Source: a virus. From it: 42,210 bases of DNA. Below, in pieces: positions 734 through 26,248 of this stretch. Position numbers and translations under genes: made by a program. The stretch covers positions 1 to 42,210 of the IMG/VR virus record IMGVR_UViG_3300031730_000011. One strand, 5' to 3'. The notes under the pieces were generated by a model, which had not been told where the DNA came from, did no database searches, and saw nothing but the letters and a program-made list of their open reading frames with translations. How positions within the stretch are numbered: the stretch's first letter is position 1; the number at the start of each line of letters is the position of its first letter.

Positions 734-759
734 CTCATCGAACAGCGGAGGAGGTGACC

Positions 760-999: not shown

Positions 1000-1001
1000 G
1001 C

Positions 1002-1924: not shown

Positions 1925-2193
1925 TCGGCGACGCCGACTATTTGAAGGCCATGAGCGGGTACAGCCAAAAGGCTTCTGTGGCCCGCTGGTGCCGCAAAAA
2001 TGGCATCCGGTTCTTCCGGAATGCCGACGGCTGGCCAGTGACGACCCCCGCGGCGCTGGACCGGGCCCTCGCCCCTGGTCTAGAGTCGGGGCCCGACTGG
2101 AGTCCCTATGCCAAGGAAGCGCCTGCCCCCAAAGGTTCACGAGAAGGCCGGCCGGTACTACTACGTCGACAAAAACAAATGGCAGGCGCTTAG
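1921..2193 (+). CDS. DUF4224-domain protein (excisionase-like position)
   Basis: GTG start overlaps the previous stop. Residues 6-50 (LKAMSGYSQKASVARWCRKN, then GIRFF, then a DGWPV turn) match the DUF4224 pattern found directly upstream of many phage integrases. The fold resembles small winged-helix DNA-binding proteins, so a directionality or regulatory role in integration is plausible. The reading frame overlaps the integrase by 86 bp, an unusually deep overlap, so the two products are probably coupled. Confidence 0.8.
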   Translation: MIGDADYLKAMSGYSQKASVARWCRKNGIRFFRNADGWPVTTPAALDRALAPGLESGPDWSPYAKEAPAPKGSREGRPVLLRRQKQMAGA

Positions 2194-3025: not shown

Positions 3026-3086
3026 GCTTAGAAAATAGCGGGGTTCTTAGAAGGATTGGCGGAAAACGACGCGTAAGTGATTGAAT

Positions 3087-3131
3087 TGGTGGGCCGTGTA
3101 GGGATCGAACCTACGACCAATTGATTAAGAG
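3087..3131 (-). other. attP: attP core: 3' part of a tRNA-Lys(CTT) gene
   Basis: On the minus strand this reads from the anticodon loop CTCTTAA through the variable region, a complete T arm (GTAGG-TTCGATC-CCTAC) to CCCACCA. The 5' half of a tRNA is absent: the bases before the loop cannot form the anticodon stem. A tRNA 3' fragment beside an integrase is the classic attP of a phage that integrates into a tRNA and restores its 3' end. Predicted attB: the host tRNA-Lys with anticodon CUU. Confidence 0.92.
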
Positions 3132-3159
3132 CCAGTCGCTCGAATCGCTAAACGCCTGT

Positions 3160-3225
3160 ATTTACAGTGCTCCACGTGGAGCAATTTCTAAGGACCTTAG
3201 AGGTTCACCCTCAATTTACAGCGCT
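3160..3225. repeat. Direct repeats ATTTACAG(T/C)GCT flanking attP: candidate integrase arm sites
   Basis: Two 12-bp copies differing at one base, at 3160-3171 and 3214-3225, 54 bp apart and 30-100 bp from the attP core. Position and spacing suit arm-type binding sites for the integrase N-terminal domain. No further copy was seen on the other side of the core. Confidence 0.5.
3168..3183. repeat. 16-bp perfect palindrome beside attP
   Basis: TGCTCCACGTGGAGCA reads the same on both strands. It has no loop and no T run, so it is not a terminator. It overlaps the first arm-like repeat and could be a site for a dimeric protein such as the DUF4224 product or a host factor. Confidence 0.6.
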
Positions 3226-3247
3226 TACGCGCCGTCGCTTAGAGGGA

Positions 3248-3463
3248 TCACCGCTGCCAGAACTTGAACGCCCTCAAGATCATGCTATCGCTCGCTTCCG
3301 ACTCGGTGACCTCGATCGGCTCGGGCCGCGGATGCACCACATCGCGCACGCTCAGACGCACGGCGCCGCTTCCATTCACGGTCGCGCCCTTCGAGGGCGG
3401 CAGGCGCTTGTGCGATGGCCTGGGCGCGGTCTTACGGTCGAGGTAGGAGTACCAGTCGCTCAT
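3248..3463 (-). CDS. Hypothetical protein at the end of the late operon, 71 aa
   Basis: Start taken at ATG 3463, which overlaps the Rz stop (ATGA); ATG 3475 is also in frame. Basic N-terminal half (KTAPRPSHKRLPPSKG), acidic stretch (EVTESEASDS) and a short aromatic C-terminus. No signal peptide or membrane segment. Last gene of the leftward late operon. Confidence 0.6.
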   Translation of the reverse strand: MSDWYSYLDRKTAPRPSHKRLPPSKGATVNGSGAVRLSVRDVVHPRPEPIEVTESEASDSMILRAFKFWQR

Positions 3464-3945
3464 TTCGCCGGCCATTCCGCATCTTCCTGCCGATAATCCG
3501 CCATGACCTTCTCGAGCTGCCGCTTCAGGGCTTCGATGCCTGGCCGGATATCGCGTTCTCGATCCACTCGCTCACGTCGCCCTTCTGGGGGATCGGCAAC
3601 GCCGCCACTGGCTTCTCCTTCGGCGCCGGACACGGTACCGATACGTAGCGGACCTGGGTCGGAGCACACGAACACAGGAGTGCGAAGAGCGGGAGCGGAA
3701 TCAATCGATACGATGACTTTGGCATGTGTGGCTTCCGTTGCGTGATCTCGCGCCGCCGTGGCGGCCGCTGAGGCGCGCTCCGCTAGAACGGCCGTTGCTA
3801 TGGTTTGAGATTGCTCCGCTCTATCGGCTTCTAATGCGGCCGTGGGACCCAACCCGCCGAGGTAATATCCTGTGCCGGCGGCGATCGAGAGCAGCGCCAG
3901 CGCCACGCCCACCTCAATATAGATCGCATACGGATTCAGCGTCAC
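3460..3945 (-). CDS. Rz: Rz-like i-spanin, 161 aa
   Basis: GTG start 3945 overlaps the stop of the preceding gene (GTGA). An N-terminal membrane segment (about residues 8-30, VGVALALLSIAAGTGYYLGG) is followed by an Ala/Glu-rich helical periplasmic region, as in inner-membrane spanins that help disrupt the outer membrane at lysis. The nested out-of-frame Rz1 lipoprotein strongly supports the call. It follows the endolysin and holin candidates in the operon. Confidence 0.82.
   Translation of the reverse strand: MTLNPYAIYIEVGVALALLSIAAGTGYYLGGLGPTAALEADRAEQSQTIATAVLAERASAAATAARDHATEATHAKVIVSIDSAPALRTPVFVCSDPGPLRIGTVSGAEGEASGGVADPPEGRRERVDRERDIRPGIEALKRQLEKVMADYRQEDAEWPAK
3525..3725 (-). CDS. 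Rz1: Rz1-like o-spanin lipoprotein, 66 aa, nested inside Rz
   Basis: Lies wholly within Rz in another frame. It has a short signal sequence ending in LLCSC, with Cys20 (preceded by Ser) the likely lipidated residue, followed by a Pro-rich stretch (VPCPAPKEKPVAALPIP). This matches outer-membrane spanin lipoproteins that pair with Rz across the periplasm. Confidence 0.85.
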   Translation of the reverse strand: MPKSSYRLIPLPLFALLCSCAPTQVRYVSVPCPAPKEKPVAALPIPQKGDVSEWIENAISGQASKP

Positions 3946-4367
3946 GGCGCAGGCGGCTTGCGGTCGAACCACGCACGGACCTGGGCGCCGACTGTCCGCA
4001 CTTCGCCGGCCAGGGCATCGACCACGCCGATGAGCCATTGCAGGCGCGTCTTGTGGACCGTCAGCTGTCCGCGGAACTCCTTGTTGTCGCGCGCCTGTTC
4101 CTCGACGAAGTTCGTAATGCGGATCTTGGTCATCTCGGCGTCATGGCGGATGGCGTCCACCGCGTGCGAGACGTGGCGCCGCGTCGCATCGTTCTGATCC
4201 GTGACGACCTGTTTCAGGGTTTCCCCGTTATCGGTCGCCCCCTCGGCAAGGCGATCGCTGATCTGATTCAGCCGACGGCGATGCCGCAGCACGAGAATGA
4301 GCAGCAACAGCACCAGCGCAAAGGTGACGCTGGACAGCTCGAGGATAGTCAGTTCACGATCCATCAC
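3942..4367 (-). CDS. Membrane-anchored coiled-coil protein, holin-region, about 141 aa
   Basis: Start GTG 4367 or ATG 4364, both at the stop of the upstream gene. One strong hydrophobic segment near the N-terminus (about residues 12-28, SVTFALVLLLLILVL) and then a long charged helical region (40-125). It lies between a second membrane protein and Rz in the lysis cassette. It could be a holin, antiholin or lysis regulator; sequence alone does not decide. Confidence 0.7.
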   Translation of the reverse strand: MMDRELTILELSSVTFALVLLLLILVLRHRRRLNQISDRLAEGATDNGETLKQVVTDQNDATRRHVSHAVDAIRHDAEMTKIRITNFVEEQARDNKEFRGQLTVHKTRLQWLIGVVDALAGEVRTVGAQVRAWFDRKPPAP

Positions 4368-4738
4368 GTATGTAAACCCTTCCAGGCCAGCATAGCCACG
4401 ACTTTAATGCCCCAGAGCACGCCTAGACCGAGGGCACCCAGGGCGCCATTGATCGCGAATCTCATCCAATCGAACGCCGTCTTCTGGACCTTCGCCTCGA
4501 GTATCCGATGGACGCCCGACTCGGTTTGCCAGTTCACCCTCTCCTGCTCGAGCGCTACGACGCGCATTTGCAGCCGCGCGTGCGCTTCCTCCAACTCGCT
4601 GATCGGCTGGGTGATTTGCTCGATGGCAAGATCGGCGTGGCCGTCTTCGATCAGTGCAGTGCGTATTTTTTGCGTGATCGAGAAATCGGTGACCGGCGAG
4701 ATGGCCCTATACCGGCCTTTCACGGTTCGCCCAGTCAT
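4364..4738 (-). CDS. Tail-anchored membrane protein of the lysis cassette, about 124 aa
   Basis: Start uncertain: ATG 4738 or GTG 4723, both overlapping the gene at 4707-4889. The central region is a coiled coil (LEEAHARLQMRVVALEQERV) and the last 35 residues form a hydrophobic segment (FAINGALGALGLGVLWGIKV). Stop overlaps the next gene. Candidate holin or holin partner. Confidence 0.6.
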   Translation of the reverse strand: MTGRTVKGRYRAISPVTDFSITQKIRTALIEDGHADLAIEQITQPISELEEAHARLQMRVVALEQERVNWQTESGVHRILEAKVQKTAFDWMRFAINGALGALGLGVLWGIKVVAMLAWKGLHT

Positions 4739-4889
4739 TGTAGTGGCCGACGAGTGCGACCGCGATGCCAAGGGCCACCGTGCGCCAGCCCTGGCCCTGC
4801 ACGCCCTGGATGGCGCCCAAAACAACGCCCGCGTAACCCGTGACTTTCGTCCGGTTGTCATGAAGCCACGTGAGCGCCGCCTTGAGCAT
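4707..4889 (-). CDS. Small membrane protein, candidate holin, 60 aa
   Basis: Two hydrophobic stretches (about 17-30 and 37-50: VTGYAGVVLGAIQGV and TVALGIAVALVGHY) with charged ends suggest two membrane passes, typical of small class II or III holins. It is the first gene after the endolysin. No clear ribosome site precedes ATG 4889, so expression may be low. Confidence 0.6.
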   Translation of the reverse strand: MLKAALTWLHDNRTKVTGYAGVVLGAIQGVQGQGWRTVALGIAVALVGHYNDWANRERPV

Positions 4890-4997
4890 AGGCGACGTTA
4901 TACGGGCGGTCAGATCCTTTCAGTGCGAGCGACGTCATAGATCCTCGTCCGGTTCTCCGTATGAGTCGAGAACTGAGCGCTGTGCACGCTCGGGCGT

Positions 4998-5411
4998 TTA
5001 GGCGATTCCGGTCAGCAATATCTTCGCCAACGGATTGTAGCGACTCGGCAATTCTCGCGCTGCATCAGAGTCGAGACACTCGTCATGCGCCGCCTGCCAG
5101 TTCTTCGCACCGATCGCGGCGAGCATCTTGGGGAAATGGAGCAGCCCTTCGACGCCGCCGTTGAATGCGATCTCGATCACTACTGACATGCGGGGATCGT
5201 CGAGGCCCTTGGCCCACCAGAAACCGGCGAGCGCATCAGCGCGCTCAGCCATCTGTTCGCGATAAAGTGCCCGGGCTGCCCGCAGGCTGATTCCGGCGTC
5301 GATGTTGAAGCCGATCCCGATCGTCTCCTTTCCTCGCGTATCAAGGTACTTATGCGACCGGAATCCTTCGGAGGGTTCCGCTCGCGCCTCCGCAATGTCA
5401 ATGGCATTCAT
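4998..5411 (-). CDS. T4-type lysozyme endolysin (GH24), 137 aa
   Basis: Hydrolyses the glycan strand of peptidoglycan. The catalytic signature is complete: Glu15 (SEGFRSHKYLD), Asp24 and Thr30 with the same spacing (E-x8-D-x5-T) as T4 lysozyme Glu11/Asp20/Thr26. No signal peptide or anchor, so it needs a holin. ATG 5411 overlaps the upstream stop. Shorter than T4 lysozyme (164), near the size of many phage GH24 enzymes. Confidence 0.93.
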   Translation of the reverse strand: MNAIDIAEARAEPSEGFRSHKYLDTRGKETIGIGFNIDAGISLRAARALYREQMAERADALAGFWWAKGLDDPRMSVVIEIAFNGGVEGLLHFPKMLAAIGAKNWQAAHDECLDSDAARELPSRYNPLAKILLTGIA

Positions 5412-5569: not shown

Positions 5570-6750
5570 GCGGTTTGCTCGAACTTGTCGAAGATCGCGC
5601 GCGCAGTACTGGAATTATCTACATACAATCCCCAATCGGTCGGCGCGGCTCCAAGGAACGTCGCTGCTGCCTGGGTGGCCAATACGTTGAAGGTCCCAGG
5701 AATACCGGTAAGGCTCTGATTGAAACTCAAGGTCGTGCCGTCGAAGGTGATCTGCAGATAAACCGGGACGGAGTCGCTCGTGCCCGCAGCTTGCCAGGTT
5801 CCACCAAGAAAGACATTTGAATTGAAAGTCGTCGCGTTCGTGAGCGCCTGCACCAGAAATTGCGTGAGACTGTAGACAGTGAAAATGATCAGTTTCCCGC
5901 TAACGCTTTCGCGCAGCGCAAGACCTCCATAATGGCTAGATCCGCCATTGAACATCGACAGCCGGCATTGTATCGACCAGGTGCTCCCGCTCACCGGCTG
6001 AAGCAAAAAGCAGCCCCGGGGAGTGGAATTGTCCGGAGTGAGGACCAATGATCCTCTTTGCTGGATTGCTGTTGATGCACCCTGATTGAGCCATGACCAG
6101 GCGGCCGCACCCGAAAAGCGCGTGCCTGCCGTATCGATAGCCGTTCCATTCGCTTCCTCAAAATCATCGTTGGCTGCGAATGGCGCAACCCCCGCATCAT
6201 GGGTCAAAGGCGTCACATTGTAGGGATTCGACCCGCCTCCGCCCGACATCGTAGCCGTCGCATGTCCTGCGCTCGGAGAAGTTACCGTCGCACCGACGAA
6301 TAGAAGATCAGTGACATTGGCGACGCTCGTCGAGCCATCGGTGACCGTAAGCGATCCGGGTGCTGAAATGTCTACGTCGGCCACGCTGCCGCTCGATGCG
6401 GTAACGGTTGCGCCGCTGGTAAAGCGAATCTTCGTGATATTGGTGACGTCAGTGATTCCGTCAGTCACATCGATCGGTGATCCGCCACCACCTGAACCAC
6501 CGCCGCCGCTCGATGCATCTATCTGGATCACGGCAACGTCATCCGTCTCATGAGTAACGGTTGCGCCCATGAATTTCAATTCGCGCGCTTGGCGCACGAT
6601 CGGTGGACTGGTCGATACATCGCTCACCGCAATGCCGATACCCAGGCCCACCGCCTCGTCGATCTTGTTCCATGCGTCATTGATCTTTACTTCCGGCTGC
6701 GCCTGCGACGGATCGAGATATTGCAGATCGAGGTTCGGTGTACCGCTCAT
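5566..6750 (-). CDS. Tail fibre / receptor-binding protein candidate, 394 aa
   Basis: Follows the large tail-tip gene with an ATGA overlap. N-terminal 60 residues resemble a tail-attachment region (NDAWNKIDEAVG), then Gly/Ser linkers (SSGGGGSGGGGSP and SGGGGSNP) separate two short related beta repeats (VTDGITDVTNITKIRFTSGA and VTDGSTSVANVTDLLFVGA). The last 190 residues form a beta-rich module with many Trp/Phe that looks like a jelly-roll or lectin-type binding head. Likely the host-recognition protein. Confidence 0.72.
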   Translation of the reverse strand: MSGTPNLDLQYLDPSQAQPEVKINDAWNKIDEAVGLGIGIAVSDVSTSPPIVRQARELKFMGATVTHETDDVAVIQIDASSGGGGSGGGGSPIDVTDGITDVTNITKIRFTSGATVTASSGSVADVDISAPGSLTVTDGSTSVANVTDLLFVGATVTSPSAGHATATMSGGGGSNPYNVTPLTHDAGVAPFAANDDFEEANGTAIDTAGTRFSGAAAWSWLNQGASTAIQQRGSLVLTPDNSTPRGCFLLQPVSGSTWSIQCRLSMFNGGSSHYGGLALRESVSGKLIIFTVYSLTQFLVQALTNATTFNSNVFLGGTWQAAGTSDSVPVYLQITFDGTTLSFNQSLTGIPGTFNVLATQAAATFLGAAPTDWGLYVDNSSTARAIFDKFEQTA

Positions 6751-9700
6751 GGGGATGCGCCTATGGTGATCGTTTTAAAAGCAGGAATGCCGCGCCCGAC
6801 GATGGCTGACATTTGATAGATCGCGCACGTAAGCGCGGTCGTCGGCGACGATCCAAAGTCCGCAACCTGTTGCGCCAGCGTATAAATAACGCTCGTCGTC
6901 GTCGTCGAAAGCGTGCGCAGCACTGCCGATGGACTGCCGTCGCTGTAGACGTCAATCTGGAATGCGAGCGTCGCTTCAGAAAGCGGCATATCCACACCGC
7001 TCATCAGCGTGCGGCCGAGCCGATCGCGGCGCGTCCAATGAATAACAATGTCGCCATTGCTCGCGAGATCCGCGAAGAGGTCGACCGGCGAGAACGGCTT
7101 GAGCGCTTGCGCGTGACCGATGAACGGATAGATCGTGCCGCTGGAAAAGCTGGCGCCGATCGAAGGAGCATCATATTGACGAGACGCCCCTATTTCTGAA
7201 GTAGACAGCACGACACGCGATAGATCGCCAGTCGAGAGCAGCACGAAGGAATCATCTGCCGCGCTCAAGCCGATATTGTGCTCTGTGCCGCGTCGTCCGC
7301 GCAGAAGTCGAGAGAGCTGCCATTGCGTTGCACTGAGCTGCGTCGCATTCGCATATTGAAAGATCTCCCAGCGACCATCCGCGCCGATCGCCGCGGCATT
7401 AGCTCCAGCCAGAACAGCATCATCCGTGCGACTCTCGAGCGAGAAGGCTGATGAATCGAGATCGACAACGATCATGGTCGTCGTGTCCCACGTGAAGAAC
7501 TCCGATGTAGGCGGCGTTGCTTGCAGCGTTCCGGTCGTCGCTTCGACCACCATGGAAAATAACGATGTCCAGGTCGCTCCTGCGTCGATCGATTTGTAAA
7601 TGACGCAGCCGCGCCAGTCATTTCCTGGGCCGGTGTGCTCCGCGGCGATGTAGAACCCAGCATCATTATCCGCATCCTGAAGGGCAGGAAGGTCGAGCAG
7701 CTCGATCGCCGTCGCAGCGAGCAGCTTCAATACCTGCGGCTGCACTTGCGACACTTCGGCGATGGCAAAGCTGATATACGCGCCTTCGTTGTCGCTCACC
7801 AGCGAGAGCTTGCGCAACACGCCGCTCGCGTTTTGCTCGCTGATGATACGCGCGCGCTGAATGAACCCATCGACTGGCAGCCCCACGGCATCGCCGACCT
7901 CGATCTCGCTTAAGGATTGATCGATCGATGCGGTATAGGTGCTTTTCGCCGCCCATGCATCACTCCACAAAATCTCGGCCGCTTGCAGCGCCTGCGTATC
8001 TCCCATGCAAAACGGCAGCGAGACATCCTGATCGTTGATCGCTTTCGTGGTAAGACGAAACGGCGATGGCTGCTGACCGTCCTGATAGTCGCGATTCACG
8101 CTCTTATAATGCAAACGGATCGAACGCGGCAACGTCGTCTCATCGACGCGCGCCACGGTAATCGATGGCGGAACGGTCGCTCCCGACGAGCCGCCATCGA
8201 AAGCGCCGATCTGATCGGCCGTGAGCGTCGCGACGATCGGCTTGCCGCGCGCGCGAAAGCACAGGATGGCGTTACTCTCGACAACGTCAAAAAAACCGAT
8301 CGAACGCAAGGGCTGAATCGCGTTCGTGCCGTCGCTGATCGAGCTAATCGAATAGCCATTCACGGTCGTCGATGTCAGATCGGAGACATCGATCGCAGAG
8401 AGGCCAGCGCGCGCGCAGAGCGCGGTAATGATGTCGGCAATGCTCACGCCGCTTCCGCCGCCCGTGCAGATCTGCTGGTCGATCATATAAGCGAAACCCT
8501 GCGTCGCAGGATATTCAACGCCATAGGTCCATCCAGAGGGCAGATCTCCGTCAATTACCGCGGCGTCATATGCCGCCGTCCAAAATGCTGATGTGTCACC
8601 GGGAGAGCCTGGAGGCAGACACGGATTCAGAGGATATTGCTCGACAATATCGATGCCGACTCCGGTGTTTATATTAATGACGGCGAGAACTTTGTACGGA
8701 CCGCCAGTGCTGACGAGCGTCCACGGCCCGCTCTTAAGATATTTGCCGTCGCCGCGGATACAGTATCCAGCGATCGGCGCGGCGGGAAGACTCGCGCAGG
8801 GATCTGCCGGTGACCCTGGAATGCGTATGACGTTGATCTCATCGTCTAGCTTGCATTGCAAATCAACGCCATAACCTGGGCAAAAGCCGATGTTGCCCGT
8901 TCCAGCCGGGACAAAATAGAAAACGCCATGATTAGTAAAAGTCAGCGTCGTCGGTGACGAATAGTATGCGCCCGACCAGTACCCATTCGGATTTGCATTA
9001 ATGAGATCGCACGCATTCGCGGGGTATGGTAAAGCCGCAGTCGTTTTCGACAAAGGGAGAAGCGTGTTATAGAACATCGAAACCTGAACTTCATTTCCGA
9101 CGAAGGAGGGAATCGGAAACCATGGCGAATAGGGGCCTGCGGCACCACCCGCTGGGCTCCAGCCGTATAGATCTCCTGTCAATCCACCATCAGCAATCGC
9201 CTCCGTGAGCGTAGCGCGCACCGGGCCTGGGCTTCCGCCCATGCTTGGGGCAAATTGATAAGTAAACACACCTAGCGGGTTGCGCGGATCTAGACTGCCT
9301 GGACCAGCCCACTTGTAGAGCACCTCATTCGAGTATTCCGTCGAATCGGTGCACTCGCCGATGCCGCTCTCGAAGACCTCAAACGTGAAATTGGGATGCC
9401 GCCAGCCCTGCGCAGTCTGCAAATTTCGGTTGGGATAGACGATGTACGCTAGCCCGCGAAACGCCGGAACGTTGCCGAAACCCTCGATCGCTTCGATTGT
9501 TGGGTCAGCCGTCTGCATCTCATCACCGAGGTATAGCGTGAACGTCTCGGCATAGACCGCGCTCGCCGCGAGTCGATTAGCGTATTGCGTATCCGTCTCG
9601 GCCGGCTGTCCGGTCGAAGTATTGGCTGTTTGCTGCGGACGAATGTCGTAGACGATCGTTCCGTTTTCCCAAATGCGCGACAGCCCGGCGATCGCCTGGC

Positions 9701-16680: not shown

Positions 16681-18036
16681 TCAACTCCCCACGAGATAAA
16701 TCGCCGGAATAGACCCGGTCCCATCTGTCGTGGGGTTCCCCGTTGCCGGCAACGCACTGCCAGAGCCCGCCGCATATCGATGGCTGATGAGCGTCGTATT
16801 GTTCACCGTCCAGCCAAGCGATTGCTGAATGCCTCCTACCGCCAACGCGCGAATAGTCGCGGCGGCGGAACAGATTACCGAGGCCCAATATAGGGTCCCG
16901 GCGGTCAGAACCAGGCTCGCAGCGGCGCTTTTGTCGCCAGTGGTCGACGTATCGAGGCCAGTGACGGAGACCAATAGCGCGTTCGGCGCGTCGTCGCCGC
17001 TGACCACTTGATTGCTGTAGATGCCAATCGCCGCAGTTCCAGCGAGCAGGGTCGTCACAGAGATTTTCAGGGCTGTGAGCGTCACGTCCCTTGGAACGCT
17101 GAAAGGAATGAAGAATTGGCGAGAGGCCGTCATCGCGAGCGTAGTTAGCGCTGTCCCATTCTCGGCCCCTACGATCTTCGGCGTCGCGTTGCGCCTGGCC
17201 CAAGCTAATCCGCTCGGTCCCGTGGCGCCCTGCACGCCCTGGGCGCCTGTCGCGCCCTGAATGCCTTGGATACCCTGCGGTCCTTGCGCACCAGCGGCGC
17301 CAGTGGCGCCTTGCGCTCCAGCAGCGCCGGTCAATCCCTGAATGCCCTGTGCGCCGGTATCCCCCTTGTCGCCCTTTGCCCCCGTTGCGCCAGCGGCACC
17401 GGTCGCGCCCGTCGCACCCGTCGGCCCAGTTGCCCCGGTGTTACCCGTAGGGCCTGCCACGCCTTGCGGCCCGGTCAGACCCGCCACACCTGGCGCGCCA
17501 TCGGCGCCGGCCGGTCCCGTTGCGCCTTGAACGCCCTGCGTCCCCTGAGCACCGGTCAATCCCGTATCGCCCTTCAACCCTTGCGCGCCAGCCGCGCCCG
17601 TGGCACCGGTCGAGCCTATCGCTCCCGTTGGCCCCGTCGGACCGGCAGGTCCTATCGCGCCGGTTGCGCCCGTGGGTCCCGCTGCACCGGCATCGCCTTT
17701 GTCTCCCTTCGCTCCAGTGGCTCCAGCGGGACCGGTCAGCCCGATCGGCCCCTGAGCGCCGCTCGCGCCTATGGATCCCGCGACACCATCGGAACCATCG
17801 GCACCCGTATCTCCGCGATCGCCTTTCGAGCCCTGCGCGCCCGTATCTCCCTTCGGTCCCTGCGGCCCTTGTGGGCCTTGCGGTCCGGTCGATTCCAAAT
17901 CCACGCAATGCTGAGAGAGCGTCGCCAGGCGCACATAGCGGGCCATGCCTGGGCGCACGATCAGCACCATATCGTCATCATCGACCTGTGGCGCAATCTC
18001 CTCGGCCGGTATCCACCGCTTCTTGCCATTGCTCAT
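16681..18036 (-). CDS. Collagen-like fibre protein, 451 aa
   Basis: Residues about 50-275 are nearly unbroken Gly-X-Y triplets with frequent [15 protein letters not shown] and KGDTG. An N-terminal 48-residue module precedes them, and a C-terminal beta-rich domain (about 280-451) with SFFIPF-like and NTTLISHRY stretches follows. Such proteins make trimeric fibres on phage heads or tails. It is inserted between the head-closure and gp10-like genes and could be a head or collar decoration that binds surfaces. The sequence is lower complexity than its neighbours. Confidence 0.85.
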
Positions 18037-18628: not shown

Positions 18629-18840
18629 GGGCCTGCCTCGCCCGCGCCGTCGCCACCCGGGAGGATTCCCGGCAAATGTTGTGGCGAATCAGCGCGGGCA
18701 GTTGGCGGCTTCGTGGTGTATTTGATTTCGACGCGGCCTCTCGTCCGCTTCGCTTCAATGCGCCGCTCGACCTCCTCTAGCCGTTTGCGGATGGCCGCCG
18801 GCAGATGAGCGCGAACCCTGGTGCAGGCGCCGCAGCTCAT
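18625..18840 (-). CDS. Small Cys-containing protein, 71 aa
   Basis: Start ATG 18840 overlaps the connector stop. Begins MSCGACTRVRAHLPAAIRKR, a CxxC near the N-terminus, then a helix and a Pro/Gly-rich tail. Unknown; small proteins with this beginning occur in head genes of related phages. Confidence 0.62.
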   Translation of the reverse strand: MSCGACTRVRAHLPAAIRKRLEEVERRIEAKRTRGRVEIKYTTKPPTARADSPQHLPGILPGGDGAGEAGP

Positions 18841-19319
18841 ACGCCCAACGCAATCCGGTAGGGCCACAGCAGCGCTTCGGCACGCGTCTCGAGCAGTTCG
18901 AAATTATCCGTGTTGCGATCGAAGAGCGATTCCATGTAAAGCAGGATCGCTGCATAGACATCGCGGCGCAGAGGCCTCGCTTGATCCTGGTGGATGGGAT
19001 TATTGGCCCAATAGGTTTGCCAATGCTGCGTAGTCCAAATCGACTGCGGCCAATCAAGCCATTCGGGCCGCGGCAGCGGACAGTTCCAGGGTGGCGGATT
19101 GGGCGAATCGACCGGATCGGGCGCCGGCGTCTGATCGGAATCACGCGGGCTATCCAATTCCATGAGCTCGGCGAGCGATCGCTGCGTGAAATTTTCGGCC
19201 CAGTCCTCCGCCGCGCCGATCAGTTTCTTGATGCGCGTATCGTGGATCGTTAACCCGTCGTCAATCGAAAGCTGCGCTTTCGCGTCCGCCAGAGTCACGT
19301 AGGTTCCGAGATTGCTCAT
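18837..19319 (-). CDS. Head-tail connector (gp6-like), 160 aa
   Basis: Begins YVTLADAKAQLSIDD and AAEDWAENFTQRSL, the typical start of phage head-tail connector proteins (adaptor ring under the portal). It has a Pro-rich insert (about 60-100: PAPDPVDSPNPPPWNCPLP), then the C-terminal AILLYMESLFDRNTDN helix. It would join the portal to the head-closure ring. Confidence 0.85.
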   Translation of the reverse strand: MSNLGTYVTLADAKAQLSIDDGLTIHDTRIKKLIGAAEDWAENFTQRSLAELMELDSPRDSDQTPAPDPVDSPNPPPWNCPLPRPEWLDWPQSIWTTQHWQTYWANNPIHQDQARPLRRDVYAAILLYMESLFDRNTDNFELLETRAEALLWPYRIALGV

Positions 19320-20047
19320 CGGTAGTGTTCCTCAATCCAGCGATGTTTACGCCTCACCTGGGCCTGCCATGGGTCCGAGTGTCCGTGCATGACGACGAGC
19401 CTGCAGGTCGGCGGAAGCACTCCGCCGCGCGGTGCGATCTCATTGCGATAGGAATAGATGCCATCGACGTGCGTGAACTTCGGCTCATTCGGCCCAAGAC
19501 ATGCACCGATCCACGCCTGATCTGAACCGATATAATGTTTCGCCAAGCCTAAGAGCGGGGACTTCTTCGGATCGAACTTCTCCCAAAGCTGACGACGTGT
19601 GCCGGCCTTGTGCAAGATCAGCGAGCCGTTGTATGGAGTCCCGCGCGCGGTGTCGCCGTACATTTTGAAATCAACATCTACATTGAAGAGTTCAGTAATA
19701 TCTCCCGTGATCACGACGTCGAGATCAATAGAGACAAACCGCGGACCGATGAACTCCGCCGCTTCCTTCGAGAACATCTTCAGGCGCCGATAGCAACTCG
19801 GGTTCCCCCGGCCGTGCGGCGATGGAACATTCTTGAAGTCGTCCCACAGTTTGATGATGCGCACGCGTTCGTCAATGCCGGCCGCGTCATCCGTAATGCA
19901 GACGAGCTCGTGCGGCTTTTTATAATGCCGCTCCAGCATTGAGCGCAGGACATTGACAGTGGCCGCGGAGAACTGCGAGCGATAGCCCGTCGGGGCTACC
20001 CATTTCCAGCAGACAAAAACCAACGGAGGCGCGTGACCGTTCAGCAC
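19316..20047 (-). CDS. Glycosyltransferase, GT8-like, about 243 aa
   Basis: Start taken at GTG 20047 (GGTGAG ahead); TTG 20092 is a weaker alternative. Features: VFVCWKW early, ITDD, a DxD-like IDLDVVITGD (metal/sugar-nucleotide site), and SDQAW. These match GT-A enzymes that transfer sugars from nucleotide sugars. First of six modification genes inserted between the capsid and connector genes. Acceptor unknown. Confidence 0.75.
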   Translation of the reverse strand: MLNGHAPPLVFVCWKWVAPTGYRSQFSAATVNVLRSMLERHYKKPHELVCITDDAAGIDERVRIIKLWDDFKNVPSPHGRGNPSCYRRLKMFSKEAAEFIGPRFVSIDLDVVITGDITELFNVDVDFKMYGDTARGTPYNGSLILHKAGTRRQLWEKFDPKKSPLLGLAKHYIGSDQAWIGACLGPNEPKFTHVDGIYSYRNEIAPRGGVLPPTCRLVVMHGHSDPWQAQVRRKHRWIEEHYR

Positions 20048-20760
20048 TGGCTCACCAAATGATAAGGAAAGGTCAGGCGCAGCGGCCTCCAATTGGGAAT
20101 AAGGGCGCGCTCCGCTTTGATTTTGGGAATCCCAATGGCATCTTGCGGCTGCTTGCGCAAATAGGTCGTCGTCGAGGCATCAGGAATCGTTTCGCGCGGG
20201 ACGCGGGTCAGTAGCGCGCCCAGGATCTCGATGCGGGCATGCGCCGCGAGCCGATCCCGGAACTCTGCATCCGTACCGTAATATCCGGCGAAGCGCTCAT
20301 CGTATCCACCGATTGTCTCGTACATGGCGCGCGTCATGAGCCACGAGTTCGGGTGCGGCTTATAGGGCGTCTCATGCCAGGGATCGAGCGATTCCAGCGT
20401 GGTGCGATTGAATCGATAGACCGAATATTTATCGAGCTGGCGTGCAAGGACTGTCTCGAAGGTCGCCTGCGGCACGAGGTGATCGATGTCCGTGAGCAGC
20501 ACCCAACCGTGGGTCGCATTGGCCACGGCGATATTACGCGCCGCATCTTGATTCCAACGGATATCGACCTCGATCCGAAAAATCCGCACCGGCATCCCAA
20601 TCTTGCGCGCCTTCGCGGGACCGTCCGGCGATCCATCGTCGACCACAATCAATTCCAAATGAGATTTGATCTGCGGCGGCAGTTGATCGAGCCGCGAAAG
20701 CTGCAGCGCGAGCATTCCCGCGTTCCGATAATACGGCAGGCAGAGCGTCACGCGGCGCAT
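20041..20760 (-). CDS. Glycosyltransferase family 2-like, 239 aa
   Basis: Start ATG 20760; upstream in-frame sequence is a shadow of the next gene. Shows VTLCLPYYRNAGML, LIVVDDGSPDG (nucleotide-binding loop), RNIAVANATHGWVLLTDIDH (DxD equivalent) and GGYDERFAGYYGTDAEF. A GT-A fold sugar transferase. Its 3' end overlaps the next gene by 7 bp. Confidence 0.85.
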   Translation of the reverse strand: MRRVTLCLPYYRNAGMLALQLSRLDQLPPQIKSHLELIVVDDGSPDGPAKARKIGMPVRIFRIEVDIRWNQDAARNIAVANATHGWVLLTDIDHLVPQATFETVLARQLDKYSVYRFNRTTLESLDPWHETPYKPHPNSWLMTRAMYETIGGYDERFAGYYGTDAEFRDRLAAHARIEILGALLTRVPRETIPDASTTTYLRKQPQDAIGIPKIKAERALIPNWRPLRLTFPYHLVSQC

Positions 20761-21374
20761 TCGGCCCCCACCAGGCTCGCAGGGTCGATCCTGGGCCAGC
20801 GTTTGATCGGCGAACTGCTCGAACAGATCGCAACGGAGATCCCGACGCGCTCGAGCTGAATGGCAGCCGTATCGAACTGCCTCGACCACTCAGCAAGTTT
20901 CCCGGCGCCCGATCCACCTCCACCTTTCCACGGATAGTTGGGAAACCAATGTCGTTCACCTCTTGGTCCGAGTGCCATATCGAATCCGACGAGAAAAAGC
21001 TTTTGTGGCCTCATCTGGTAGGCCAAGTTCAGCGCACAGAATCCTGAGTTTGTCCCGTGAAGCGTTCCTCTCTCGTCGCTCAGCACGGTCGCTTTGTGGT
21101 CGTTCTCGAATAGATGTACGTGCTTCAATTCCCTCGGATCGACATTCTTCATGGTCGATCGACGCAGGAAGATCGCGCGCGTCGTGCTCCGCTCGATCAG
21201 TGCCCATCGATTCTCCGCCCATAGTCGATCCATGGAGACGCAAATATCCCAGCGCGGCGCGTAGTAGGCCGCATCGTTCACGGCAATCACCGTACCAGGG
21301 AGCTTGCGCAGATCGACTTTCGAGGCCGACCACCCGCCGGCGAGCACGGTCACTTGTTGGTATGGGCTACTCAC
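20748..21374 (-). CDS. DUF115-like protein, 208 aa
   Basis: Begins VTVLAGGWSASKVDL, then VIAVNDAAYYAPRWDICVSM, then NSGFCALNLAYQM and KLFLVGFDM. The arrangement (GGWSxS loop, D-x-x-W, GFD) is shared with the protein at 23185-23697 and with the DUF115/MAF-type group found near flagellar and polysaccharide glycosylation genes. Role unknown; likely a sugar or nucleotide-binding enzyme. GTG 21374 overlaps the upstream stop. Confidence 0.72.
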   Translation of the reverse strand: MSSPYQQVTVLAGGWSASKVDLRKLPGTVIAVNDAAYYAPRWDICVSMDRLWAENRWALIERSTTRAIFLRRSTMKNVDPRELKHVHLFENDHKATVLSDERGTLHGTNSGFCALNLAYQMRPQKLFLVGFDMALGPRGERHWFPNYPWKGGGGSGAGKLAEWSRQFDTAAIQLERVGISVAICSSSSPIKRWPRIDPASLVGAECAA

Positions 21375-22009
21375 CGCGCCTCCAGAAGCAGCGTCGAGAA
21401 TTTGGCGCCCTGATAAACCGTGTCGAGGAACTGGAACGCCATCCGCAGCTCATCCTCCCATTCCGGCTTGTTGCGCCTCACATCGACGATTAACTTTGTA
21501 TGGTGCGCGACAGAGCAGCGTCGCACCAACGGCAAATAGGTCGATGGTTCGAAGTGAAAGCACCAGGACCGGAAGCTCACGATGAGATCGACTTTGCGGT
21601 CAATGGCATATTCCGGCGCGCTCGCATCGATAAAATCGAAGTACTGCACGCCGTTCGAGGCTAAAAAGCGTTTCGCGACATCCATATCATTGAAGGTCTC
21701 CGAGTGCAGATCGACCACGGGCCGATCGGCAACGCCGTCGAGCAGCGTCACCAGGCACTCACCGCCGTAATGCTGATTGAGCAGCGCGTCGATGCCGCCC
21801 AGTCCCGAGCCCACATCGAGGATCGTGCGACAGTCCTTCGGCAGATACGGCTCGATCGCATCGAATTCGCTATAAAGAGAATTCGTATAGTGTTGCAGCC
21901 AGACTGCAGGGTCACTCGCGGCGAAATCAGAGATCGCGCCGCGCTGCAATTGCAAGAACGGATAGGCCTCGAGCGGCACGGTTAATCCTTGATCGCGATT
22001 GAGGCTCAT
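21371..22009 (-). CDS. SAM-dependent methyltransferase, 212 aa
   Basis: Start ATG 22009 overlaps the upstream stop (ATGA); longer readings into 22010-23092 are shadow. Motif I is ILDVGSGLGGIDAL (about residue 65), followed by LLDGVAD and FDFIDAS. A class I methyltransferase of unknown substrate; the setting suggests methylation of a sugar or surface protein. Confidence 0.82.
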   Translation of the reverse strand: MSLNRDQGLTVPLEAYPFLQLQRGAISDFAASDPAVWLQHYTNSLYSEFDAIEPYLPKDCRTILDVGSGLGGIDALLNQHYGGECLVTLLDGVADRPVVDLHSETFNDMDVAKRFLASNGVQYFDFIDASAPEYAIDRKVDLIVSFRSWCFHFEPSTYLPLVRRCSVAHHTKLIVDVRRNKPEWEDELRMAFQFLDTVYQGAKFSTLLLEAR

Positions 22010-23181
22010 GGTTTTGTCGCCACGATCTTGATGTCCTTGGATTGTGGCGGACTCACCACGCCTACGCTCCAGCCATTTGTCATTAGCTTGCCCACCCACC
22101 AATCGGCTGGGTGAACGGAAAGGTGGGCATTGCGTCCATCGGGCAAGATCGCATTGGCCGGTCTTGTCGAAATGACGAAATAGCCGACTTTGCCGGTGAT
22201 GCGATAGAGGTGATCGAGAACGGCGTCGAGCTTTTCTGGCTCCACATGCTCGAGCACGTCCGTGCAAACGACCAAATCGCACGGTTTCGGCATCTTGGCG
22301 CGCTCGGGGATCCCCGGATCGTAGCCCGAGACGCGAATCGGCTTGAGCGATTCGGCAAGGCGGTTTTCTCCGCACCCATAGTCCAGGATCGTCGCCGGCG
22401 AGAATTCCTGGATCAAATCGCGAACCGCGGAGGTATGTTTGGCGCCGTCCGCGCCCCAGGTGCGCTTGCGATGAAGTTCCGTGAGCTGGCCGCGATAGAA
22501 GTCGCTCGTGAGATCCCGCTGCGCGTACCGATAGGCGCCGGCGTGCCGCATGAACATCCCGATATGGCCGAGGTCGAGCGCATGGATGCCCTTGCGGGAC
22601 AATCGATAGGCGAGAACCGTCGCAGCCGTTCCCAGGCAGATGAGCACGGTCCCCTGCGCCTTCCCGACGGCGTTCTCGATTGCACTGAGCTCCGAATAGG
22701 CATGCTGGCGCGAGCCGATGACCTCGCGAACAGAGCGCGCTTCGGCGCCGATCATCTCCGTCGTGATCGATTTCTTGTCGCCGACCACGAGCGTGATGTC
22801 GCGATCCCTCCAGAGCGCGCGCACTTTCTCCCAATATTCCGGCGTATCGATCCACGGCGCGTTGTCGGGACGTGTGATGAAGCTCGAATAAAACTCGCCG
22901 GCTCCCAGCAAGGAGGTGTATTTCTGATCGCAGTACCGCGCCCAGCTCTCGGCGCGCGGACAGCCTGTAAACGGATTCGGGATCCCAACCATGAGTTGAG
23001 GTGTTGTATTGCGAAGGATCAACTGCAATTCTGTGGCCATTTTCCGATCCGGATGCTGAGAAGTGCAGCCGCCGCCGACCGCACATCTCCACTCACCATC
23101 CCCGAAGCGGGCGATCGAGCGCGTCTGCATCGCCTCGATGGTGCGCATCTCATCGATGATCTTGGGATACTTAAGCGCCAC
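22006..23181 (-). CDS. Two-domain protein: GT-D-type glycosyltransferase + methyltransferase, 391 aa
   Basis: N-terminal half has RFGDGEW, the hallmark of the DUF1792/GT-D sugar transferases, plus LVVGDKKS, LICLGTAATVLAYRL and ALDLGHIGMF. The C-terminal half (from about 260) has ILDYGCGENRLAESL and VCTDVLEHV, a class I SAM-dependent methyltransferase. A direct fusion suggests the same glycan is extended and capped by methylation (inference). The ATG start has no clear competitor. Confidence 0.8.
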   Translation of the reverse strand: MALKYPKIIDEMRTIEAMQTRSIARFGDGEWRCAVGGGCTSQHPDRKMATELQLILRNTTPQLMVGIPNPFTGCPRAESWARYCDQKYTSLLGAGEFYSSFITRPDNAPWIDTPEYWEKVRALWRDRDITLVVGDKKSITTEMIGAEARSVREVIGSRQHAYSELSAIENAVGKAQGTVLICLGTAATVLAYRLSRKGIHALDLGHIGMFMRHAGAYRYAQRDLTSDFYRGQLTELHRKRTWGADGAKHTSAVRDLIQEFSPATILDYGCGENRLAESLKPIRVSGYDPGIPERAKMPKPCDLVVCTDVLEHVEPEKLDAVLDHLYRITGKVGYFVISTRPANAILPDGRNAHLSVHPADWWVGKLMTNGWSVGVVSPPQSKDIKIVATKP

Positions 23182-23184
23182 GAT

Positions 23185-23697
23185 CTATCCCACGGCCGCG
23201 CGCGCCGCATCGATCTCGATGGGCAGTTCCGCTTCGATCGAAGACTGACGGAAGCATTTCAACGCGGTCTTCCGCGAGCAGTTCACAATGTCGATGCCAC
23301 GTTTCTCGGCATCGATCGCCAGGCCCTGCATCGCCTTCACCCATTGCGGATAGCGCCCACCATTGCCGAGCGTTTTTGGCGGGTGATCGCCGTGCCAGTG
23401 CGTCTTGCCATTCGTGCGCTGAAAGTCGAAGCCCAACAGCACAATCTTCGAGGCGCCCCACAAAGCGGCGAGCCCGATCGCTTGATACCCGCTGTTGTAG
23501 CCAGTATGGATTTTGTCCGGCGTCTTCGAGAGCCCGGGCGAATCGTAGCCGTAAATCCATCGGAGCTTGAACTGGTCGCGCGCCGCGCTCGCGCAGGTCC
23601 ACATTTCCGAGCCGCGAAATGTCGTCGCAACCTCCGCAAAGTAGTGCTGCCACCATGACGCATCGCAGCCGTAGAGCACATCCGCCCAGGGCGCCAA
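23185..23697 (-). CDS. DUF115-like protein; conserved N-terminus lies upstream in the same frame
   Basis: First conventional start is TTG 23697 (171 codons with stop). The same frame continues upstream with no ATG/GTG/TTG to about 23940 and encodes RWAGATVAIIASGPSLTRQD, a motif expected at the N-terminus of this family, then KIIVINTSFRLAPWADVLYG. So the TTG form would lack the nucleotide-binding-like loop. The frame is -1 to the gene at 23721-24086, and a slippery site lies at 23874-23880. A -1 frameshift would give a 300-residue fusion. Confidence 0.75.
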   Translation of the reverse strand: MAPWADVLYGCDASWWQHYFAEVATTFRGSEMWTCASAARDQFKLRWIYGYDSPGLSKTPDKIHTGYNSGYQAIGLAALWGASKIVLLGFDFQRTNGKTHWHGDHPPKTLGNGGRYPQWVKAMQGLAIDAEKRGIDIVNCSRKTALKCFRQSSIEAELPIEIDAARAAVG

Positions 23698-23720
23698 GCG
23701 AAAACTCGTGTTGATGACGA

Positions 23721-24086
23721 TTATTTTGCATCGGGTTCGGCAGAAATCGACGTCTTGACGCGTGAGCGACGGCCCGCTCGCGATGATGGCGACGGTGGCG
23801 CCTGCCCATCGTCCTTCGGTGCCGCCGAGTTTGGGTCTGGAGACAGCGGCGGCTGCGAGTCTGTCTCGGAGACTTTTCCCTTCGTGATCGGGGCTCGAGG
23901 AAACGCTTGATTGCGCTCCGGCTGCAACGTCGGTATCTGCGGCGCATCGTCATCGCGAATGACTTCGATCATGCCGCCCACGCGCTGCAGCTGCTTGACA
24001 TAGCCCTCCTCGCTCCAGAACTGATTGCCGATGCGCATGAAGCCGTAGCGGCTCTGAAAGGATTTCAAGGCTTTCACCTGAATCAT
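23721..24086 (-). CDS. Small structural-region protein, 121 aa; 0-frame product of a frameshift pair
   Basis: ATG 24086 follows a full AGGAGGTGAGG ribosome site. Residues 1-45 form a compact domain (KALKSFQSRYGFMRIGNQFW, then EEGYVKQLQRVGG); the rest is Pro/Ser-rich and basic. It lies between the major capsid gene terminator and the modification island. It shares 5' sequence with the predicted fusion to the DUF115-like frame. Precise role unknown; related phages often have small proteins of this kind beside the capsid gene. Confidence 0.75.
   Translation of the reverse strand: MIQVKALKSFQSRYGFMRIGNQFWSEEGYVKQLQRVGGMIEVIRDDDAPQIPTLQPERNQAFPRAPITKGKVSETDSQPPLSPDPNSAAPKDDGQAPPSPSSRAGRRSRVKTSISAEPDAK
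23840..23880 (-). other. Candidate -1 frameshift signal: G GGA AAA plus downstream hairpin
   Basis: 0-frame codons are AAG GGA AAA GTC, so G-GGA-AAA fits the heptamer rule. Six bases later a 7-bp stem (GAGACAG / CTGTCTC, 23867-23861 with 23846-23840) and 14-base loop could stall ribosomes. Slipping enters the DUF115-like frame, which has no start codon of its own before 23697. Confidence 0.7.
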
Positions 24087-24183: not shown

Positions 24184-25548
24184 TTAGGTGCTGGTCCCCG
24201 ACGGGAACGCACCATAGACGAATGACGCCGGACGAGTCACCGCGAGAGCAACGCGCTCCTCACAGAGAATCGTGACCATATTGCGCACGAAATTGTCTTG
24301 ATCCTCGGTGCTCACCAAGATCTGCGCCTGTTCCCGATCGAAGAGCGTCGCGGCAAGCTTGAACGAGCCGACCATGAAGTCGCCCGCATGAAAGCTGTCC
24401 GACGCCACGACCGGCAGACCCCAGATCATCATCGGCGTGAGTCCGCCGATTGGGCTGGCGAACAAATACCGGTGCTGCGAGTCCTTGGTCAGCATCGTGC
24501 TCCACCAATCTTGCGGGCTCATCACCACGCCGGTCGCCGGATAGAACGCCTGGCGCACCTGCAACATCGCGTGCGCGATCACATCGATGTGCGTGTCGTT
24601 CGCCTTGGCCCCGACTCCGGTATAGGCCGTCGCCTGCGGCACCAGTCCATGAAGGTGATCGCCGGTCCCATCGCCGTAGAGGATCTCGTGTTCCTCGACC
24701 AGCTTCAGGCCGAAATTCAGGCGCGTATCGATCAACGACATGAGCAGCTTGAAGTCCGAGAGGACTTGCTTCGAGGCCTTCATCCAGTGCGCGATCGTGG
24801 TCACCGGCACATTGTTGCGGGTGTAGGTGATGTCGGATTGCGGTTTCAAAGCGCCTTCCGAAACGACCGCCGCGTTGTTGGTGAACACGTTCTCCTGGAA
24901 CCAATAGATCAGATCGCTTTCGGTCGTGCCGATCGACAGCAGATCGCGCACGGTGAGATTCTGGAAGTTCGGAATGACCGGCGTCTGCAAGTACTCTGGC
25001 GTGATGCCGGGGCCACCGGAGACCGGACCGCCCGTGATCGTCTTCAGCTTGAACGGCTTGCTCTGCGCCTTGACGTTCATACGCCCGGTCGGCGCGAACT
25101 CGATGAGCTCCGGCGATTCGGCGAACTGCTGCCCGATCGACTTGACCAGATTGCCGCCGCCATTTGGCGAACTGCGTGCGGCCAGCTTTTGCGACAGATC
25201 GAGAATGATGGCGTTCTGCTTTTCCTTGTACTCCAGGAACTCCGTCATCGTCTTCTGGCCGCTCGTATTGAGCTTGGCGATCTCCTCCTTGGTGCTGTCC
25301 TGGATCGAGCCGAATACCTTGATGTCCTCGGTATGCTTGACGAGGATATCGTCGACCTTTTTGAAGTGCTTGCCGAGCGCCTCGTCGATCGCGGCTTTGA
25401 CCTTGTCGGGTGCAGCTTCGGCTTCCGCGACGGGGCCTTCATGCAGGTAGCTCTGCTCCTGCGAGCGATCCCATTGGAGGGTCGCCATGTCGAGAACGCC
25501 GCGCGTGATGATGCGTCGCGCGACGGACTGAGTAGATTTGCGTGTCAT
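24184..25548 (-). CDS. Major capsid protein, HK97 fold, 454 aa
   Basis: Start ATG 25548 with AAGGAAA ahead; the listed upstream extension is shadow. The N-terminal 130 residues are charged and helical (VDDILVKHTEDIKVFGSIQD), like the HK97 delta domain removed by the protease. The mature part contains LIYWFQENVFTNNAAVVSEG, HWMKASKQVL, EEHEILYGDGTGDHLHGL and MSPQDWWSTM, typical of the family. The terminator directly downstream fits high expression. Confidence 0.95.
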   Translation of the reverse strand: MTRKSTQSVARRIITRGVLDMATLQWDRSQEQSYLHEGPVAEAEAAPDKVKAAIDEALGKHFKKVDDILVKHTEDIKVFGSIQDSTKEEIAKLNTSGQKTMTEFLEYKEKQNAIILDLSQKLAARSSPNGGGNLVKSIGQQFAESPELIEFAPTGRMNVKAQSKPFKLKTITGGPVSGGPGITPEYLQTPVIPNFQNLTVRDLLSIGTTESDLIYWFQENVFTNNAAVVSEGALKPQSDITYTRNNVPVTTIAHWMKASKQVLSDFKLLMSLIDTRLNFGLKLVEEHEILYGDGTGDHLHGLVPQATAYTGVGAKANDTHIDVIAHAMLQVRQAFYPATGVVMSPQDWWSTMLTKDSQHRYLFASPIGGLTPMMIWGLPVVASDSFHAGDFMVGSFKLAATLFDREQAQILVSTEDQDNFVRNMVTILCEERVALAVTRPASFVYGAFPSGTST

Positions 25549-25561
25549 GGAGAAATTTCCT

Positions 25562-26248
25562 TTATGCGATTTTGAAGGATTCAATCTGCGCCAAGACGTC
25601 ATCGAGCGCGATGGCCTCGCTACCCTCTCCACCCCCAGCATCACGCTGGTTGAGGAACTTCGCATACCCAATGCTGGCGATTGCATTGGCCTGCTTACGC
25701 GAGAAGCCGGCAGCATCGCGCAGCAGCTCCTCGAAATCTGAAATGGATGGGAGTTTTCCGCCCATGATTTGCGATTTGATCTGCGTCACCGACGCTTCGA
25801 CGTTCGCCGGGAAGGTCACGATCGAGCATTCCCACAAATCGATCTCCGTGAGCTTCCAGACGTTGGTCTTGCCGTCGTATTCCATGCCGTCTTCCGGCAC
25901 GTCATAGCCGATCGACATGCCGCGAATGGCGCCGGACTTCAGGAGCGCCTGCGCCTCGCGGGCTTTTTTCACGTCCTGGATCAGCAGTTGCCCCTCGACG
26001 TAGAGCCCCTGGCCGTCCTCGGCCATCTTCGTGAACGGCCCGATCGGCTGATCGCTGCGATGCTGCCATAGCACCGGCGGAAGGGCGCCTCGTTCTTTCC
26101 ACGAGGCAAGCGATTTGGCGAACGCTCCGGGCATGACGACGTCCCGATAGGCGTCCGCGTTGCCGAAGATCGAGCCGTAGCCCGCGAAGGCGCCGGAATC
26201 CTCGACCGCCTTGATCTTGAATCCGAACTGACGCTGTTTGAGCTTCAT
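25562..26248 (-). CDS. HK97-family prohead protease, 228 aa
   Basis: ATG 26248 overlaps the portal stop. Core motifs: GSIFGNADAYRDVVMPGAF, LWQHRSDQPIG (catalytic His) and SGAIRGMSIGYDV (catalytic Ser), then EIDLWECSIVTFPAN. It would cut scaffold/delta parts of the capsid protein. The C-terminal 60 residues are an Ala-rich extension typical of scaffolding tails. Order protease-capsid downstream of portal is standard. Confidence 0.94.
   Translation of the reverse strand: MKLKQRQFGFKIKAVEDSGAFAGYGSIFGNADAYRDVVMPGAFAKSLASWKERGALPPVLWQHRSDQPIGPFTKMAEDGQGLYVEGQLLIQDVKKAREAQALLKSGAIRGMSIGYDVPEDGMEYDGKTNVWKLTEIDLWECSIVTFPANVEASVTQIKSQIMGGKLPSISDFEELLRDAAGFSRKQANAIASIGYAKFLNQRDAGGGEGSEAIALDDVLAQIESFKIA

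Follow-up and report, generated by a model that had tools for sequence, protein, structure and literature searches.

Genes of the sugar-transfer and methylation island

IMG/VR virus record IMGVR_UViG_3300031730_000011, analysed over its whole length of 42,210 nucleotides (hereafter, the window), appears to be a complete record (42 kb) of a temperate phage, with a 127-nt direct terminal repeat and with the head-to-tail genes on the minus strand. As an earlier note on this DNA had described, an island of sugar-transfer and methylation genes lies in the late direction between the genes for the major capsid protein and the head-tail connector. We find that the lead glycosyltransferase (GT) of this island has no start codon of its own and that its frame overlaps, in the −1 register and across a slippery heptamer, a small post-capsid open reading frame (ORF) that encodes a domain likely homologous to the C-terminal domain (CTD) of lambda gpFI, an arrangement suggestive of programmed ribosomal frameshifting.

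The island is bounded by the gene for the HK97-type major capsid protein (24184..25716, minus strand, start codon uncertain; Pfam Phage_capsid, 3.5e-45; phrog_10, major head protein, 6e-62) and, at its far end, by that for a gp6-like head-tail connector (18837..19319, minus strand; Phage_connect_1, 7e-6; phrog_40, 8e-8). Downstream of the capsid gene, all on the minus strand, are the 121-aa post-capsid ORF (23721..24086), whose 0-frame product consists of a gpFI-CTD-like segment (residues 1-45) followed by a P/S-rich tail; the lead DUF115 protein, denoted DUFa, a −1 frame extension that resembles Maf and GT42 glycosyltransferases (23185..23874; phrog_4603, 4e-49); and a fusion of a GT-D glycosyltransferase with a methyltransferase domain (22006..23181; PF08759, 3e-29; Methyltransf_23, 4e-11), the GT-D half of which also matches NCBIfam TIGR03728 (SP_1767 family; 9e-26, below the curated cut-off). 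These are followed by a methyltransferase-like protein whose position is kept in relatives (21371..22009; Methyltransf_25, 0.004, a weak match below the cut-off), a second DUF115/MptE-like, glycosyltransferase-like protein, DUFb, with its own GTG start (20748..21374; phrog_4603, 2e-23), a GT2 family glycosyltransferase (20041..20760; Glycos_transf_2, 1e-9) and a GT8-like glycosyltransferase (19316..20092; phrog_1962, 4e-11; Pfam GT8, only 0.027; TTG start uncertain). The GT8-like protein shares 56% identity with a protein of Tetraselmis viridis virus S20 and distantly matches PmgQ of phage P1 (22%, E = 4e-7).

The protein families named in the earlier note (GT8, GT2, two DUF115, a methyltransferase and a GT-D-methyltransferase fusion) are supported by the Pfam and PHROG matches, weakly so for GT8 in Pfam and for the methyltransferase. 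Its description of six free-standing genes with overlapping starts has to be revised: the first member is the −1 frame of the post-capsid ORF, without a start of its own, and a gap of 3 nt lies between 23185 and 23181. The start assigned to the lead gene, 23697, is likewise wrong: the conserved domain reaches 34 codons beyond it, to about 23799. With the small post-capsid ORF included, as it should be, the island extends to 24086. No strong membrane segment was found in any island protein (maximum KD19, 1.53), and no nucleotide-sugar genes were detected among 20 further window proteins scanned with Pfam, so that the sugar donors would be those of the host.

A glycosyltransferase frame without a start, in the −1 register of the post-capsid gene

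In the window, the DUFa frame contains no ATG, GTG or TTG before the ASGPSL motif; the motif is at codon 56 and the first standard start is at codon 84, i.e. 28 codons past this invariant motif. The frame overlaps the ORF at 23721-24086 in the −1 register. The proposed frameshift site is the slippery heptamer G GGA AAA (23874..23880, minus strand), in phase with the 121-aa ORF, and a slip at 23880-23874 is predicted to yield a fusion of 71 + 229 = 300 aa. The −1 register was observed in all 23 related loci (three of them near-identical) that contain both the small ORF and DUFa, and the same layout is present in phage D3 (orf6.5/orf7), phage Psp6 and Tetraselmis viridis virus S20. In the existing records, the annotation of D3 orf7 begins at an internal start, and no gene is annotated under the frameshift pair of phage phi1 (locus L043, 3789-4533).

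A wider collection of homologues was sampled from two viral scans, with the best 80 loci taken from each, and 5 loci were added from a genome collection. Among the 208 DUFa homologues, 202 had a hit covering the motif and were grouped into 109 clusters; the other 6 (L001, L011, L027, L028, L029 and L042) had no such hit and were dropped. No start precedes the motif in 57 clusters, only a distant one (more than 40 codons away) in 10, and a near one in 42. An HK97-type capsid gene is located within 900 nt upstream in 56 of the 57 clusters without a start, 9 of the 10 with a distant start and 8 of the 42 with a near start. A profile search detected the gpFI-like domain upstream, in the register that requires a −1 shift, in 66 of the 69 frameshift-type clusters besides the window (3 gave no hit), although, as the profile was built largely from the same clusters, the presence of the domain, but not its register, is partly by construction. 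In 35 of the 39 remaining clusters, the profile search found no gpFI-like domain. L204 carries the domain in the same −1 register, and in L089, L111 and L119, the gpFI-like domain and the GT are in frame within one ORF, i.e. they are natural in-frame fusions; a fourth such fusion, below the profile threshold, was recognized by eye in L116. Homologues sited elsewhere have their own starts (P1 pmgO, PAJU2, JK004, Mulvp2, CcrColossus and Marchewka). Sixteen hand-picked pairs, some of which are misaligned by indels downstream, show 138 differences over the 36 nt that precede the motif; 61 of these fall at third positions of the −1 frame, which points weakly to use of this frame.

Slippery heptamers

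Slippery heptamers were sought in 70 clusters, namely, 66 of the 67 that lack a near start (all but L204) and 4 that were added by eye (L154, L071, L189 and L067), having been chosen for an upstream capsid gene and an offset-2 ORF. The region searched reached back from the motif to where the −1 frame opens, by no more than 70 codons. In-phase heptamers of the form X XXY YYZ were identified in 58 of the 70 clusters, whereas the two control phases gave 13 and 6 and codon shuffling predicted 20.6. With Y limited to A or T, the corresponding numbers were 52 of 70 in phase, 9 and 5 in the other phases and 5.3 expected; all four clusters added by eye have A/T heptamers, and without them the count is 48 of 66. 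The most common heptamers are GGGAAAA (16), CCCTTTG (9), GGGAAAC (7), AAAAAAA (6) and CCCAAAG (6, including the D3 cluster). The tail-chaperone frameshift gives no internal control because no in-phase heptamer was found in the three window ORFs inspected.

The gpFI-like domain and the enzyme domain

An AlphaFold2 (AF2) model of the N-terminal domain (51 aa, pLDDT 82.7) superimposes on the CTD of lambda gpFI (2lsm, VIA) with a root-mean-square deviation (rmsd) of 1.0 over 42 residues (Z = 5.5), the lowest rmsd among the best 50 structural matches listed; the top Foldseek match is YqbF of B. subtilis (E = 0.12). When the whole Protein Data Bank (PDB) was searched with a profile of the domain, 2lsm ranked second (E = 1.1). 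Comparison with an alignment of seven gpFI proteins using hhalign gave a probability of 82 for the whole and 91 for the C-terminal part, with a score of 30.4, whereas the best of 150 column shuffles scored 17.4 and the reversed profile 10.1. Taken together, the structural match, the rank in the PDB profile search and the profile-profile score make homology with the gpFI CTD likely. The N-terminal half of gpFI is absent and the window ORF begins with the CTD-like domain; thus, the protein is a homologue of the gpFI CTD, not of full gpFI. Like the small ORF in the window, lambda FI sits after the capsid gene (lambda E-FI). Among members of the N-domain family, 28 of 48 match phrog_2616, for which no function is given, and 4 match Pfam DUF7210. 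Lambda gpFI binds the gpE lattice of the prohead, as stated in passages of PMC4856287, and, by extension from lambda, the gpFI-like domain of the window may dock on the capsid lattice.

The S/T/P-rich tail of the 121-aa product was also considered as an evolved acceptor. This is not supported, because the recurring 'PSSASPAAPAS' is the other-frame shadow of the sequence coding for IASGPSL.

The AF2 model of the enzyme domain, based on 86 sequences, has a pLDDT of 95.5 and a pTM of 0.91. The best PDB match is Maf of Magnetospirillum (5mu5; Z = 16.1, rmsd 2.9 over 173 residues), followed by the GT42 sialyltransferases CstI/CstII (Z = 11.4-12.6, with 12.6 for CstII; Foldseek match to 1ro7, E = 3e-4). 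The GPS, N, SG and D columns of the nucleotide site align with CstII (E = 0.03-0.07), and the catalytic His lies outside the aligned range. Across the 86 diverse sequences, G9, S11, N30, D46, G104, D125 and H134, which represent the sialyltransferase nucleotide site and the HWH motif, are invariant or nearly so. Maf enzymes are cytoplasmic and function in flagellin glycosylation, and in streptococci GT-D enzymes lengthen the sugar chains that adhesins carry.

Relatives with and without the cassette

Scanning IMG/VR with the GT-D-methyltransferase protein yielded 28 loci. In most of these, the gene order is terminase, portal, protease, capsid, small ORF, DUFa, GT-D-methyltransferase, methyltransferase, DUFb, GT2, GT8, connector, with identity of about 30-87% across the conserved block. 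The exceptions are L011, in which five island genes are located away from the head genes, and L028/L029, in which a related GT cassette adjoins a terminase-like gene. L028 belongs to an unrelated phage; its cassette (78-5225), for which some labels were assigned by eye, consists of GT8-like, GT2, GT-D, GT2, FkbM-like, methyltransferase-like and GT8-like genes directly upstream of the terminase-like gene.

A scan anchored on the capsid gene produced 80 loci, 71 of them long enough to judge: 12 have a gpFI-like gene together with DUFa, 20 have a gpFI-like gene only, and 39 have neither at the profile threshold. The comparison suggested in the earlier note yielded relatives with and without the lead GT, and the 20 loci with a gpFI-like gene but no GT indicate that the GT is an add-on. 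The neighbourhoods of 76 clusters were also listed, with counts that are lower bounds because the loci are often incomplete at the ends. DUFa is followed directly by the connector in at least 10 of these clusters (L204, L205, L182, L181, L199, L195, L200, L198, L197 and L154), and at least 30 carry a GT-D homologue. Given this variable gene content downstream of DUFa, the fusion appears to be the core of the system and the other five window genes its elaborations.

The recorded host of Tetraselmis viridis virus S20 (L031, NC_020840) is a green alga. This virus has an ordinary HK97-type head/tail operon, the cassette and the −1 overlap, and its true host is probably a bacterium from the algal culture.

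Proposed mechanism and alternative explanations

We consider it fairly probable that the island is a late-expressed protein-glycosylation cassette, the lead enzyme of which is produced by −1 programmed ribosomal frameshifting, docks on the prohead and modifies a head protein. The scheme that we infer, from slippage through docking, catalysis and acceptor to the order of the sugars, is as follows. Most ribosomes would make the 121-aa gpFI-like protein, and some would slip on G GGA AAA to make the 300-aa fusion of the gpFI-like domain with a Maf/GT42-type glycosyltransferase. The fusion would dock on the prohead lattice and transfer a host-made activated sugar to a head protein, the candidate acceptors being the capsid subunit, the gpFI-like protein or a close neighbour of these. 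The GT-D, second DUF115, GT2 and GT8 proteins, as free, soluble GTs, would extend the glycan, and the two methyltransferase domains would cap it, with the enzyme ratio set by frameshifting, as for gpG/gpGT in tails. We also incline, with somewhat more belief than doubt, to the broader view that in many HK97-type phages, including D3, frameshifting turns some of the gpFI-like chaperone into a prohead-docked glycosyltransferase, so that slippage determines how many enzymes each prohead carries and the capsid receives its sugars as it is assembled. Such a head-assembly glycosylation machine would be overlooked, because annotation splits the fusion into two ORFs.

The earlier note had proposed that the cassette could decorate the virion, with capsid, collagen-like fibre or tail as the possible targets. 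Virion glycosylation is now better supported, and the head is the likelier site, because a conserved −1 frameshift appears to link the lead GT to a gpFI-homologous domain. The collagen-like fibre, a 451-aa protein with a long GXY region encoded between the head-closure and tail genes (16681-18036), is an unlikely target; it was rejected as a conserved partner because runs of at least 8 GXY triplets are present in only 4 of the 42 loci with homologues of GT-D as well as GT2, namely, the window, L118 and the pair L016/L058, which come from a single contig.

Several observations weigh against the frameshift-tethered mechanism. On structure alone, ribosomal L9 and GINS domains reach the same Z (5.5) as the gpFI match of the N-terminal domain, which spans only about 27-45 residues; further fold relatives of the enzyme domain include an MptE-type pyrophosphokinase (Z = 11.1) and thiamine pyrophosphokinases (Z = 10.8). 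A canonical heptamer is absent in 12 of the 70 clusters, and the 86 nt after the window slip site show no unusual RNA structure (z = −0.65 vs shuffles); according to passages of PMC5009743, a downstream stimulatory structure is not needed in all phage frameshift cases. DUFa homologues work unfused in other phages, L190 has a GT directly after the capsid gene without the N-domain, and the clusters are not phylogenetically independent. Finally, P1 pmgO, pmgP and pmgQ were non-essential in a CRISPRi screen, as reported in part of PMC10695390, so that these unfused homologues imply no essential assembly role.

Four other explanations were weighed. The cassette might modify host surface glycans, for receptor masking or serotype conversion, with its genes merely riding in the late operon: loci for surface glycans often contain GT2, GT8 and methyltransferase families, several PHROG labels read 'moron, auxiliary metabolic gene and host takeover', an integrase gene (2108-3025) marks the phage as temperate, and the five genes of L011 are sited away from the head genes. 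This we regard as unlikely, considering that the island proteins lack a strong membrane segment, that no flippase or lipid-linked GT was seen and that, in about 70 clusters, the lead enzyme would be made as a fusion with a gpFI-like head domain. The GT-like extension could instead be a structural domain, for binding or decoration of the prohead or virion, with no enzymatic role. Its homologue is labelled 'structural protein', a label only, in the PAJU2 and Eowyn records, and frameshift-made Ig-like extensions of head proteins are known (described in part of PMC5009743). However, the near-invariance of the nucleotide-site residues and the HWH motif, together with the association with a GT-D homologue in at least 30 of the 76 listed clusters, makes a purely structural role rather improbable.

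Frameshifting would be unnecessary if the GT were initiated at an unrecognised non-AUG codon inside the upstream ORF, a reading consistent with the 12 clusters without a canonical heptamer and with an in-frame ATC in some clusters. Nevertheless, of the 13 clusters in which the open frame ahead of the motif is just 12-23 codons long, 8 lack even an in-frame CTG, ATT, ATC or ATA, the excess of heptamers is specific to one phase, and in-frame fusions occur naturally; we therefore find non-AUG initiation very unlikely. Least credible, in our estimate, is a role of the cassette in the glycosylation or methylation of hypermodified phage DNA. Some phage GTs do attach sugars to DNA bases (cited in passages of PMC12619734), and the window has a PurA/PurZ-like gene at the record ends, possibly a base-modification gene; but no base-hydroxylating, thymidylate-synthase-like or other hypermodification Pfam domain was detected in the 20 further window proteins, PF00709 is absent in 6 of 6 island-bearing relatives, and the fusion to the head domain would be left unexplained. 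The PurA/PurZ-like adenylosuccinate synthetase gene occupies 41755-42210 and 1-733, across the record ends that share the 127-nt direct repeat; it scores better against PurA than PurZ models and is below all curated NCBIfam cut-offs.

Relation to known systems

In mycobacteriophages, capsids and tail tubes are glycosylated by phage-encoded enzymes (Freeman 2023, as cited in passages of PMC12691614, PMC10877033 and PMC12619734). To judge from its genes, the window is similar in that GTs are encoded in the late structural region, whereas those passages make no mention of a GT joined to a head chaperone by frameshifting. The window cassette differs further in its lead GT, which is Maf/GT42-like and accompanied by GT-D, a GT8-like protein and two methyltransferase domains, and in its occurrence in HK97-type phages related to phages of proteobacteria. 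The earlier suggestion of an undescribed virion glycosylation system therefore holds for the frameshift-tethered mechanism, which we did not find in the literature, and not for virion glycosylation as such. No paper linking frameshifting with a phage head glycosyltransferase was found among open-licence papers, most subscription journals being outside this scope, and 'glycosyl' occurs 0 times in the first 300,000 of the 475,107 characters of PMC5009743.

The Maf/DUF115 flagellin glycosyltransferase (5mu5), the best fold match of the lead enzyme, is a protein glycosyltransferase; the window enzyme corresponds to the core domain only (204 aa vs 632) and is fused to a gpFI-like domain. With lambda gpFI, the window protein shares this domain and the position of its gene right after the capsid gene, but in the window the domain is N-terminal, the N-terminal half of gpFI is absent, and a GT extension has been added. 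Head and tail proteins extended by frameshifting include lambda gpG-GT and the Ig-like extensions in T3, A2 and A118/PSA, as described in part of PMC5009743. As in these cases, a minority product of a structural gene would gain a C-terminal domain; in the window, unlike in them, the extension is a predicted glycosyl-transfer enzyme and the upstream gene is a gpFI homologue. The late operon pmgO-pmgP-ppp-pmgQ of phage P1 also encodes two DUF115-like proteins and a GT8-like homologue; in contrast to the window, the P1 genes have their own start codons, are located away from the capsid gene and are accompanied by a protein phosphatase, with no gpFI domain seen. In the P1 record (L032, 5941-8499), pmgO, pmgP and pmgQ, the two DUF115-like genes and the GT8-like gene, are labelled 'putative morphogenetic'.

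If correct, the proposed mechanism would show how phages direct sugars to their own shells, would explain a class of 'sialyltransferase' orphans of HK97-type phages that gene callers have mis-started or missed (e.g. in phi1), and would mean that the few domains appended to head proteins through frameshifting include an enzyme. The recognition of phages by antibodies is influenced by virion glycans (PMC12691614, in a passage citing Freeman 2023), so that identifying glycan-bearing phages matters.

Further fusions were noticed among the sampled loci. In L074, L076, L103, L110, L072, L071 and L112, the DUF115 frame continues into a D3 orf12-like domain, which suggests further sugar-transfer gene fusions at the same site. 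In L102 and L113 (about 6335-7540 and 1-1170), a GT2-like region, recognized by eye, shares one ORF with a DUF115-like domain.

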